IMG/VR virus record: IMGVR_UViG_3300005830_000044
Coordinates: 1-20,813 of that record
Origin: a virus
DNA length: 20,813 bases
Direction: 5' to 3' (one strand)
The notes under the pieces were generated by a model that saw only the letters and a list, made by a program, of their open reading frames with translations, searched no databases and was not told the origin of the DNA. This document shows, in pieces, positions 17,748 through 20,813 of this stretch. Every line of letters begins with the position of its first letter. Positions within the stretch are counted from its first letter, which is position 1. Both the position numbers and the translations under genes were made by a program.

Positions 17748-19322
17748 TTACCGAGAGTGCTTGAACGGGTCGTAGTCGCGTCGTGTGTGGACCTGCTGCG
17801 CGGGCCCGAGCTGGCTCGCGAGGGCGTGAGGCACGGAGAACGTGAGCGCCGCTGCGTCGCCGAGATCGGGGCTCAGACCGAGCCGCGCCTTGATGTGCTC
17901 CTTCGATTCGAGCAGCAGCCGTGTGCCCACGAACTTCGTGCCTTCGTCCCACCGAGGCGCAGTCAGCTCACTGTGCAGGATGTCGTCATCGGGAATCGAC
18001 ACAGGCACCGCCTTGTCGTCTATCCACTGCCGCATGTGATCCCACATCTCCGCGCGCCGGTTCGCGTAGCGATCGGGCTCGTACGCCTGCGCTCCGAAGT
18101 TCACGGCATGAACGATCTTGTCGTAGCCGTTGGCCTTGAGTATGTCGTACACGCCAGCTCCGACGCCCGTGACATCGATCGGCATCGCCTTGGGCTGGAA
18201 CTGCTTGATCACCATCGCGAGGCGCGAGGCGATGGCGTTGAGGTCGTTCATGTCCCACCGCTCGCAGATGATCTTCCCTAACACACGACCTTGCCGAGAG
18301 ATCACGCCCGTACGATCTCCACCACCGCGCGCGGGATCGACACCGATGACGATCGGTCCGTAGGGCTCCGTGAGCGTGCGTCGCGCCTCGACCACGCGCT
18401 GATTCGAGATGAACGAGCCCTCGCCTCCAGACTGAAAAGCTTCCATCACGTTCCCCGGATGCTCTTGAAGGAATCTCCACGACGGACCCGACTCGGGATC
18501 CTCGCCTGTCTGCGCACAGCGATCGGCGTTCTTGGTGTACGCCCAGTAGAGCTGCTCGATGTCCACCTCGTGCTGCTGCTGATACGCGAGCCACGCCGCG
18601 CTCGGCTTCCAGTCATTAGGGGGATCGCGTCGATTCGAATGCTTCATCTTCCACGAGAGGAACGTGCAGCGCCACGTACCCACGCCCCTAATAGCTGCCA
18701 TCGTCGTCGCCCAGAACGGACCACCGACACCGTTCGCACTCGACTCAAGGATGAGCATCGAGCCCGTGCTCGGCACGGCGTTGCCCGCACCATCGAAGTG
18801 GTCTTGGGCATTAGGCCAGAACGCGACCTCGGAACCGTGAAAGAGCTGGAACGTGAACGAGCGGCCCACGCTGCGCGCACCGGCCGTACCCACGACGTAG
18901 CCCGAGTCCATTTTCGGGAAGCGCAGCTCGTTCGCGTTGTCCTTGCCGACAGTGGGCGCAACGAGCTTCGGCAGGTTGTCGTAGTACCGCTCGACCATGC
19001 CGAAGAGATTCGACGTTGCCTTGGCCTCGTGGGTGAGGATGAACGCCAGCCAACCGAAGTGGTGAATCACGCGCCACAAGAAGTAGGCCGTGATCAGCGT
19101 CGAGGTGCCGAGCTGTCGCGCCTTCGGTACGACGAGACGCACGAAGCCACGAGAAAGCCACTGCTCCTCGATCTCTTCGTACAGCGCCTGCTGCGCCTCG
19201 TTGAGGATCAACGGTACGACGTCGCCCGACTCACTGCGGATACGCAGACACTTACGCGCGAAGTACGGGAAGTCGTCCCGCAGACGCCTCCGAATACGGC
19301 GCTCGTCGAAGGACAGCTCCAT
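17748..19322 (-). CDS. Large terminase subunit (packaging ATPase and nuclease)
   Basis: The 524-residue product contains the ATPase centre (Walker A-like VPKARQLGTST, residues 65-75; Walker B MLILE, 189-193) and a C-terminal RuvC-like nuclease with VIGVDPARGGGDRTG (Asp329), PIDVTGVGAGVYD (Asp383) and DLGDAA (Asp487/Asp490). It cuts concatemeric DNA and drives it into the procapsid through the portal. The Walker A lacks the classical GKT form but matches the K-x-R-Q-x-G-x-S/T variant common in terminases. ATG at 19322 overlaps the upstream stop as TGATG. The motifs are complete, so an active enzyme is expected. Confidence 0.96.
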   Translation of the reverse strand: MELSFDERRIRRRLRDDFPYFARKCLRIRSESGDVVPLILNEAQQALYEEIEEQWLSRGFVRLVVPKARQLGTSTLITAYFLWRVIHHFGWLAFILTHEAKATSNLFGMVERYYDNLPKLVAPTVGKDNANELRFPKMDSGYVVGTAGARSVGRSFTFQLFHGSEVAFWPNAQDHFDGAGNAVPSTGSMLILESSANGVGGPFWATTMAAIRGVGTWRCTFLSWKMKHSNRRDPPNDWKPSAAWLAYQQQHEVDIEQLYWAYTKNADRCAQTGEDPESGPSWRFLQEHPGNVMEAFQSGGEGSFISNQRVVEARRTLTEPYGPIVIGVDPARGGGDRTGVISRQGRVLGKIICERWDMNDLNAIASRLAMVIKQFQPKAMPIDVTGVGAGVYDILKANGYDKIVHAVNFGAQAYEPDRYANRRAEMWDHMRQWIDDKAVPVSIPDDDILHSELTAPRWDEGTKFVGTRLLLESKEHIKARLGLSPDLGDAAALTFSVPHALASQLGPAQQVHTRRDYDPFKHSR

Positions 19323-19561
19323 CAGTGCGTGGGCGGCTTGGGCAACCCCACGAGCGTGGGCTTGTGGATGAGCGTCTTGCGCTGCGAACGCAAGTAGTCC
19401 GACACACCCGACAGCGCGTTGGCAAGCATCTCACGCGCGGTGTCGTCGGCCGCCCAGTTCTCGATCTTCGCCTGGATGCGCCCATCCGGCTGCACGAGCA
19501 TGAGCACGTTGAGACTCGATACGCAGACCGGTCCCCGAGCCCCGTCCTTCTCGTCATCCAT
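19322..19561 (-). CDS. Unknown small protein between terminase genes
   Basis: From ATG at 19561 the product is 79 residues, beginning MDDEKDGARGPVCVSSLNVL with a central ARIEN-like stretch (GRIQAKIENWAADDTAREML) and a basic, proline-containing end. An ATG five codons earlier is possible, but GAGGAGAAG sits just before 19561. It overlaps the small-terminase gene by 8 bases and the large-terminase gene by one. I do not recognise it; its place suggests a packaging accessory. Confidence 0.65.
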   Translation of the reverse strand: MDDEKDGARGPVCVSSLNVLMLVQPDGRIQAKIENWAADDTAREMLANALSGVSDYLRSQRKTLIHKPTLVGLPKPPTH

Positions 19562-19820
19562 CCGACTTCTCCTCATCGTCGAGCATCTTGAGCGCCTGCT
19601 CGTGGGTGATCGTCACGTCCGCCGTGTGGTGCTGCGGAATGATCCGATTAAATGCGCCCATGAAGGTCTTCGAGTCCCGCTTCCCCAACGCCACGAGGTA
19701 GTCCTCGCCACCTAATCGATCGAACGCGTTACGCACAGCCTCGCGCACGTCGGCCGTGAACTTGTTGGGCGTACCCTTCTTACGGCCGCCGTACTTCGGA
19801 CTACCCTTGGGTCTGCTCAC
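19554..19820 (-). CDS. Putative small terminase subunit
   Basis: The 88-residue product begins SRPKGSPKYGGRKKGTPNKF, a basic start seen in many small phage proteins next to large terminases, followed by helices (VREAVRNAFDRLGGEDYLVA, then SKTFMGAFNRIIPQHHT). Its size equals T7 gp18 (about 89). Small terminases bind the packaging site and regulate the large subunit. The start is GTG at 19820 with GAGGTAG upstream. The neighbouring winged-helix protein (19846-20199) is the alternative candidate for this role. Confidence 0.6.
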   Translation of the reverse strand: MSRPKGSPKYGGRKKGTPNKFTADVREAVRNAFDRLGGEDYLVALGKRDSKTFMGAFNRIIPQHHTADVTITHEQALKMLDDEEKSDG

Positions 19821-19845
19821 GGAACTACCTCAAACTAAAATTCGT

Positions 19846-20199
19846 TCAGTCGAACAACGTAACAGGCTGCTCGAAGAGTCTCACCCCGAGCCTACGCTCG
19901 ACCGCGAACTGCGCCTCCATCCCGTCGGAGTACTTGACCTTTCGCTTGCCGGTCAACGACTTAGAGGCGACACGAGCGATCCGCCGCGCACGCTCCAGCT
20001 TGGGCATCTCCACCGCCCAGAGCCCCGCAACACGGCGGCGCAACAAACCTTCATCGATGAGCGGCTGAGTCCACCGATGAATGTGAAGCGGGCAGTACCC
20101 GATCTTCTTCGCGACTGCGTACCCCGACACCGGGGCGAGTACCTCTACCTCGTTGAGTACACGAATGAAGAACTCCACTCGCCGCTCGATCTGTGTCAC
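19846..20199 (-). CDS. Winged-helix DNA-binding protein
   Basis: From GTG at 20199 the product is 117 residues. Residues about 25-62, with YAVAKKIGYCPLHIHRWTQP then LIDEGLLRRRVAGLWAVE, read as a winged helix-turn-helix with a C-terminal wing strand; the rest is basic (KSLTGKRKVKYSDG). An open frame extends to a GTG at 20328 but passes through inverted repeats and lacks a ribosome site, whereas GGAGGT lies four bases before 20199. As first gene of the late block it may regulate it, possibly by binding the repeats just upstream, or may be a packaging-site recognition protein. Confidence 0.68.
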   Translation of the reverse strand: MTQIERRVEFFIRVLNEVEVLAPVSGYAVAKKIGYCPLHIHRWTQPLIDEGLLRRRVAGLWAVEMPKLERARRIARVASKSLTGKRKVKYSDGMEAQFAVERRLGVRLFEQPVTLFD

Positions 20200-20212
20200 A
20201 CGACCTCCGAAG

Positions 20213-20262
20213 GCCCGGGCCGGTGAGGGGTCGGCACCGGAGGAGATGCCGCCGGCCCGGGC
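20213..20262 (-). promoter_or_regulatory. GC-rich inverted repeat in the leader of the winged-helix gene
   Basis: GCCCGGGCCGG (20213-20223) and CCGGCCCGGGC (20252-20262) are perfect 11-base arms with a 28-base spacer. In minus-strand RNA they would form a very stable stem ending five bases before the GGAGGT ribosome site. No U run follows on either strand, so a terminator is unlikely; an operator or a leader structure is more likely. Confidence 0.55.
20220..20240. repeat. Inverted repeat CCGGTG/CACCGG, copy 1
   Basis: CCGGTG and CACCGG flank nine bases (aggggtcgg). The same arms recur at 20309-20331, so this is a repeated element and a candidate protein-binding site. Confidence 0.55.
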
Positions 20263-20308
20263 AAGCAAGGGAGGTCTACTCAATCGAAGGGGTGGGTGCA
20301 ACGAGGGG

Positions 20309-20331
20309 CCGGTGAGGGTGTACGACACCGG
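20309..20331. repeat. Inverted repeat CCGGTG/CACCGG, copy 2
   Basis: CCGGTG and CACCGG flank eleven bases (agggtgtacga), with an inner GTGT-ACG-ACAC. The left half, gggccggtgaggg, matches copy 1 exactly; centre-to-centre distance is 90 bases. Confidence 0.55.
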
Positions 20332-20368
20332 CGCATAAGAACCGGAGGGAGGCCTTATGATCTATTGA

Positions 20369-20394
20369 TTACTTACTTTACTTACTTACTTAAG
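20369..20394. repeat. AT-rich TTAC tandem repeat
   Basis: Five TTAC units, the third offset by one T, end in TTAAG and are followed by a purine run (aagaaaaagaaaagagga). The tract is strikingly AT-rich in a GC-rich genome and sits centrally in the gene-free 20200-20560 region. It could be a promoter region for the late block, or a DNA-unwinding element of an origin. No convincing minus-strand promoter could be fixed. Confidence 0.5.
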
Positions 20395-20472
20395 AAAAAG
20401 AAAAGAGGATACGGAGTATCCACGGCGACCGGCGTAAAGCATTCTTCATGGCGTCATCATGCTCCCAAAAGG

Positions 20473-20500
20473 TTTTGCCGCGGCGCGGGGGAAGGCAAAA
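20473..20500. promoter_or_regulatory. Inverted repeat TTTTGCC/GGCAAAA, possible operator
   Basis: Perfect seven-base arms at 20473-20479 and 20494-20500 with a GC-rich 14-base spacer; a smaller pair CAAAA-GG-TTTTG overlaps the left arm. It lies immediately before the candidate promoter of the ribbon-helix-helix gene. Confidence 0.4.
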
Positions 20501-20504
20501 GGAA

Positions 20505-20532
20505 TTGCGCGTCGTTTTGGGTCTGGTAGGGT
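20505..20532 (+). promoter_or_regulatory. Candidate promoter of the rightward genes
   Basis: TTGCGC (20505-20510) and TAGGGT (20527-20532) are separated by 16 bases, an acceptable though weak match to a sigma70-type promoter of the TANNNT class seen in GC-rich bacteria. Transcription would start about 20 bases before the GTG at 20561. Confidence 0.4.
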
Positions 20533-20533
20533 G

Positions 20534-20554
20534 CCTCCCCTAACGCAAAGGAGG
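20534..20554 (+). promoter_or_regulatory. Ribosome site with complementary leader sequence
   Basis: The strong site AAAGGAGGG (20548 onwards) lies six bases before the GTG at 20561. CCTCC at 20534-20538 can pair with GGAGG at 20550-20554 and could mask the site. Confidence 0.45.
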
Positions 20555-20560
20555 GTTCTC

Positions 20561-20755
20561 GTGCGCGTAATCAGTCTCAGTAAATTGATGGTCCCCGACG
20601 ATCTCTGGCCCCGCGTCAAATCGTCTGCGGCGCTTGAGGGTTTGACGCTCTCTCAGTTCGTGGCGCAGGCCCTGTTGTTCCACGTAGAGCACCAAGAGAA
20701 TGCGCGTCGCGTGAAGTGGATCAAGGAGTCCGCGCCGAAGAAGCGCACCCGATGA
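20561..20755 (+). CDS. Small ribbon-helix-helix type protein
   Basis: From GTG at 20561 the product is 64 residues: a short strand (RVISLSKLMVPDDLWPRVKS), a helix, a turn EGLTLSQFVAQALLFHVE, and a basic tail ending KKRTR. Strand-helix-helix order with L-S-x-F-V at the second helix is typical of CopG/Arc-type DNA-binding proteins, which are often autoregulators. The start is chosen for its excellent ribosome site; an ATG at 20459 would read through the promoter and repeat region. It is divergent from the virion genes and coupled to the next gene by an ATGA overlap, so it may be a regulator or an antitoxin-like partner. Confidence 0.68.
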   Translation: MRVISLSKLMVPDDLWPRVKSSAALEGLTLSQFVAQALLFHVEHQENARRVKWIKESAPKKRTR

Positions 20756-20813
20756 GCCGCGACGCGCTCGGCTCCCGCGCGAAGAAGTACAGGTTAGACC
20801 GAGCGGACATCAA
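20752..20813 (+). CDS. Start of a second rightward gene, cut by window edge
   Basis: ATG at 20752 overlaps the preceding TGA (ATGA) and opens a frame to the end of the window, reading MSRDALGSRAKKYRLDRADI. Only 20 codons are visible, basic and without a recognisable motif. The overlap suggests translation coupled to the ribbon-helix-helix gene. Confidence 0.5.
   Translation, partial: MSRDALGSRAKKYRLDRADI

Follow-up and report, generated by a model that had tools for sequence, protein, structure and literature searches.

What do the inverted repeats clustered between two divergent sets of genes do in the genome of a little-studied podovirus? We asked this question of an IMG/VR record of 20,813 bases, the entire length of which was analyzed (the window) and which is classed as linear, often a fragment. 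No end repeats were found in this linear fragment, and its GC content is 63% overall. Judged by its leftward capsid, portal, and terminase genes, the virus is an epsilon15/BPP-1-like podovirus; identity to named phages is about 41% to 50% for the capsid (among the matches listed), about 40% to 44% for the portal, and at most 39% for the terminase. The nearest relative by capsid (L005, 63%) has a sequence that starts inside the terminase. The leftward operon opens with a gene for a winged-helix-like protein of 117 aa (19846..20199, minus strand), followed by a gene for an 88-aa protein with a GGRKKGTPN motif (19554..19820, minus strand), relatives of which lie upstream of the terminase in L007, L028, and L029, and by the gene for the terminase large subunit of 524 aa (17748..19322, minus strand). 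The first clear rightward gene encodes an Arc/ribbon-helix-helix-like protein of 64 aa (20561..20755, plus strand). About 360 bases separate the winged-helix GTG (20199) from the start of the Arc-like gene (20561) at this divergent junction, and it is in this gap, the only large intergenic one of the contig, that the repeats cluster.

All of the repeats that a sequence-only reading had claimed within 20200-20345 are present. Two dyads share the half-sites CCGGTG and CACCGG and lie 89 nt apart. That reading took them for two copies of the same inverted repeat, but their spacers differ: the first is CCGGTG-N9-CACCGG (20220..20240) and the second CCGGTG-N11-CACCGG (20309..20331). No further CCGGTG...CACCGG pair with a spacer of 3-20 occurs in the contig of 20,813 bases; the dyads are unique to the junction rather than spread in many copies over coding regions. 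A 13-nt direct repeat, GGGCCGGTGAGGG, occurs at 20217..20229 and again at 20306..20318. The first dyad lies within a nested repeat and overlaps one of its 11-nt inner arms, which are GCCCGGGCCGG on the left (20213..20223) and CCGGCCCGGGC on the right (20252..20262) and form one of two perfect 11-mer inverted repeats (spacer at most 60) in the contig. Each inner arm includes the palindrome GCCCGGGC, found twice in the whole contig with identical cores 42 bp apart. The nested repeat is larger than first noted, the outer 7-bp pair at 20202-20208/20270-20276 having been overlooked. On the minus strand, the outer left arm (20202..20208, GACCTCC, read as GGAGGTC) includes the Shine-Dalgarno sequence of the winged-helix gene, GGAGG at 20208-20204, 4 nt ahead of the GTG, and the outer right arm (20270..20276, GGAGGTC, read as GACCTCC) is complementary to it. 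The whole repeat therefore combines an 11-bp inner and a 7-bp outer pair, with an asymmetric internal loop of 4/7 nt between the arm pairs, and stops 2 nt short of the start codon.

Other small features were seen in the gap. A TTTTGCC...GGCAAAA inverted repeat with a 13-nt direct repeat lies at 20466-20508, upstream of the ribbon-helix-helix gene. On the plus strand, a 30-aa ORF (20246-20338) follows GGAGGAG and has a stop and then GGAGGGAGG; it gave no PHROG match and its Shine-Dalgarno sequence is very close to the ATG. A three-codon plus-strand ORF (ATG ATC TAT TGA) is found at 20358-20369. These two ORFs are possibly leader peptides or chance.

The repeats could have no function at all and stem from chance or local duplication in a GC-rich intergenic stretch, which we consider unlikely. 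We compared them with shuffles of 20200-20345 and, separately, of the whole contig, having chosen the tests and thresholds with the repeats already in view. Local shuffles seldom or never yielded the features: an inverted repeat of at least 11 in 0.3% of 5000, a direct repeat of at least 13 in 0.1% of 5000, and neither any duplicated 6-bp inverted repeat nor the nested 11+7 repeat in 3000 (0/3000 each). Single repeats often appeared in whole-contig shuffles (11-mer inverted repeat, 103/200; duplicated 6-bp inverted repeat, 23/60), in favor of chance, whereas the nested 11+7 repeat appeared in 1% of them (3/300), and the contig holds it once, at the junction. Therefore, genome-wide, the individual repeats are unremarkable, while their nesting and their clustering in the large intergenic gap are not. 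The location of the element in that gap, next to the GC minimum, also speaks against chance.

As RNA, the element is predicted to fold into a very stable hairpin. The minus strand of the 75-nt element gave -48.1 kcal/mol (z -6.24; 0/200 shuffles equally stable), an energy below that of all 8296 scanned 75-nt windows of both contig strands. The GC-corrected top score in its own 1.35-kb stretch was -3.38, ordinary beside the top windows of relatives (183 loci, among those listed), a result that counts against a masking leader and fits an element without function. The plus strand folds as well as the minus strand (-48.6 kcal/mol, z -4.90); the fold therefore cannot separate RNA from DNA. The asymmetric internal loop is more in keeping with RNA than with a binding site for a protein dimer. 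An Rfam search gave no match up to E = 1.

In this predicted fold, the ribosome-binding site of the winged-helix gene is buried. Accessibility of GGAGG was predicted at 0.003 for a leader from 20400 and at 0.0 with 200 nt upstream, compared with 0.05-0.68 at the other 13 minus-strand starts tested. The Shine-Dalgarno sequence was buried at least as deep in 6% of 300 shuffled leaders, and a short leader (5' end 20276, with 60 nt of the gene) had an accessibility of 0.53, above most of its shuffles; masking may therefore be a by-product of the GC-rich sequence. Taken together, masking of the Shine-Dalgarno sequence is suggested by these models, at a level that is not significant.

We also looked for signals from which the leftward operon could be transcribed. 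Directly upstream of the nested repeat on the leftward strand lies the GC minimum of the contig, 100 bp with 38% GC (20350..20449) compared with 63% overall; this island, which holds a (TTAC)n-like repeat at 20369-20392, is a candidate promoter or unwinding region. A scan of 19800-20813 for the sigma-70 consensus found no promoter, and a relaxed scan returned weak candidates only. A weak terminator-like stem of 6 pairs (3 G-C) with a T-rich tail points leftward within the island (20407..20421, minus strand), 1 being found where 1.1 were expected. As only 2 nt separate the repeat from the GTG, a promoter has no space between them, and leftward transcription must therefore start inside the repeat or to the right of it. 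A start to the right would place the element in the mRNA.

The reading that we tentatively rank first is that the element is a structured leader RNA of the leftward, terminase-containing operon that masks the winged-helix ribosome-binding site. It is placed first because no other reading accounts for the asymmetric loop, for the outer arms, and for the way in which the repeat overlaps the ribosome-binding site, and because phage T4 offers a firm precedent. Leftward transcripts would begin in or close to the AT-rich island (20350-20449), and their leader would fold into the nested hairpin. The winged-helix gene would have little translation while its ribosome-binding site is paired; relief would come from avoiding or opening the hairpin, whether by a transcript beginning inside the right arm, by an RNA-binding protein, or by processing. 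The purpose might be a low level of the regulator, and perhaps of the start of the late operon, early in infection.

The T4 precedent concerns genes e, soc, 49, and I-TevI, whose leader hairpins mask the ribosome-binding site (PMC3014915). As in e, soc, and I-TevI, an inverted repeat in the leader pairs with the Shine-Dalgarno sequence of a phage gene, and in our case this pairing inside a stable helix, of the gene e type, is predicted. The T4 sites are masked in long transcripts and free in late ones, with a late promoter inside the 5' arm (PMC3014915); in the window, such a promoter would be a putative one. In contrast to T4 (PMC3014915), the phage here is unrelated, the masked gene encodes a putative DNA-binding regulator, and the hairpin is a predicted one.

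A second reading is protein binding, which is possible and nearly as likely as a masking leader. The GGCCCGGGC palindromes, 42 bp or about four helical turns apart, and/or the CCGGTG dyads would bind the winged-helix protein in autoregulation, or the ribbon-helix-helix protein, setting an early/late switch. The divergent junction is indeed flanked by two genes for DNA-binding proteins, as far as their matches go. The winged-helix gene matched a PHROG transcriptional-regulator family at E 6e-4 and the 64-aa protein an Arc-like family at E 0.0018. The AlphaFold model of the winged-helix protein, made with two sequences, has a pLDDT of 62.6 and is nearest to Rrf2 and MarR regulators, a similarity to repressors that favors operators, at E 0.03 or worse; no structure matched it at E 0.001 or better. 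Its sole homologue found, in L007/L056 (one and the same contig; phmmer E 0.047, 29% identity), sits in the equivalent place ahead of the 88-aa gene and aligns from the GTG at 20199, for which reason a 160-aa version of the ORF (start 20328) was discarded. In L007, no divergent junction interrupts the closely packed genes, and no such leader precedes the homologue. For the winged-helix protein, tblastn against phages and against plasmids gave no match, and a pattern-based scan of viral contigs gave 7 candidates, 0 of them confirmed.

The concentration of repeats at the junction, with CCGGTG dyads nowhere else in the contig, also fits operators, as does the record of the related podovirus epsilon15, with two annotated repressor sites, one at 12-27, some 20 bases ahead of the terminase operon and at the same genomic position, and the other at 2931-2947. 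Both of these sites are ATTACC-N5-GGTAAT, a 17-bp AT-rich palindrome of constant spacer and of a sequence unrelated to the window element, whereas the CCGGTG dyads vary in spacer (9 and 11) and so do not form a set of repeated sites with equal half-sites and spacing. In phi29, p4 binds inverted repeats at the early/late junction (PMC3100819), and the p4/p6 sites (CTTTTT-15-AAAATG) resemble the window in their position and in having small phage DNA-binding proteins as partners, candidate ones in our case. The phi29 sites have a fixed spacer and A-tracts (PMC3100819), while the window element is GC-rich with unequal spacers, and any overlap with a promoter would be putative. Moreover, operators here would be situated downstream of the island that is the likeliest promoter and would abut the start codon, and the outer 7-bp pair that reaches into the ribosome-binding site would be left unexplained. 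The proposal that the repeats are operators is therefore borne out as far as position, flanking genes, and the epsilon15 site fit cis-regulation, and weakened by the unequal spacers and the run into the ribosome-binding site. Antitermination of the HK022 put type was considered as a possible reading of the element as well.

A role in packaging or replication appears quite improbable. The dyads would then mark an origin or a site of pac/cos recognition, DNA unwinding being assigned to the AT-rich island, and the adjacent terminase operon and the GC minimum next to the element agree with this. Yet no terminus was found, the contig continues for about 540 bases beyond the element, the window shows no primase, and the sequence-only suggestion of a pac/cos site gained no supporting result. 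Another argument for such a site comes from other phages. Long dyads at a comparable place were found in 2 of the 9 named phages tested, BPP-1 and BcepC6B, and in none of Nostoc JY18, Mel-JY33, MW202485, vir555, epsilon15, phiV10, and HU1; the dyad measure also found none in Shamal, FBPa19, and RapA (the last over a short stretch only). BPP-1 has a 22-bp and BcepC6B a 15-bp perfect repeat (0/300 shuffles each), and the BPP-1 dyad also occurs in Bordetella phage vB_BbrP_003. Both form nested dyads of about 100 bp, unannotated in their records, at 26607-26710 in BPP-1 (L295), with 10-bp tandem repeats in the arms, and at 1-98 in BcepC6B (L287), where the dyad comes after a primase/polymerase gene. 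Like the window, these phages have a nested dyad close to where the terminase operon starts, but their dyads measure about 98-104 bp, stay clear of a ribosome-binding site, and are unrelated to the window element in sequence. The window element is without the TTGCC-type tandem repeats of BPP-1, and its gapless dyad score is 11, against 24 for BPP-1 and BcepC6B. It thus falls short of the BPP-1/BcepC6B type, with gapless scores of at least 16 and, in BPP-1 and the L113 group, 10-bp tandem repeats; a score of 11 was reached by 90 of 192 rows.

Across 177 loci, dyads scoring at least 14 were found in 26 upstream stretches and in 4 control stretches inside and after the terminase. Long dyads lie about 650-1000 nt upstream of the terminase in L113, L120, L125, L105, L109, L124, L129, L130, L123, and L114; those of this group consist of 10-bp units such as TTGCCAANATTGCCAAT, repeated in tandem and arranged as inverted pairs (TTGCCTACATTGCCTACAA in L130), and in L113, L125, and L105 a primase-like gene is upstream of the dyad. 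Nostoc phage JY18 (L289, 2600-2822) has an array of ACCCGGGT palindromes after its primase/polymerase gene, with an exact spacing of 20 bp between three of them. A motif common to the window and this phage (CCCGGG repeats after the primase gene) was rejected, as the likeness is within chance (score 24 in 113/1000 shuffles).

We also searched for the window element itself. It is absent from the loci L002-L298 by blastn-short (longest match 15 nt), and no match came from 50,697 phage records when 17748-20813 was compared with them by distant blastn. None of the close relatives identified has sequence that spans the junction. The pattern GGGCCGGTGAGGG-N2..10-CACCGG was found in 5 viral contigs, where ORFs of at least 80 aa overlap it in 5/5; nothing therefore marks it as intergenic there, and these were not taken as related sites.

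In a wider and very doubtful reading, which takes in the window, BPP-1, BcepC6B, and the group of IMG/VR contigs, the place where the terminase operon of epsilon15/BPP-1-like podoviruses begins would be a hot spot for long dyads unrelated in sequence and alike in architecture. These might represent a common element for control or for replication/packaging that evolves fast and is undescribed as a class, the masking repeat of the window being one form of it.

In conclusion, it is plausible that the junction is a cis-regulatory region, of an ordinary kind and unproven, the repeats most likely acting as ordinary on/off control of the neighboring gene. Taken alone, it is a routine regulatory region. 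If the reading is true, this would be another phage in which the first gene of the terminase operon is restrained by a leader or by operators, and the junction would be a place to seek the early/late switch in a little-studied group of podoviruses.
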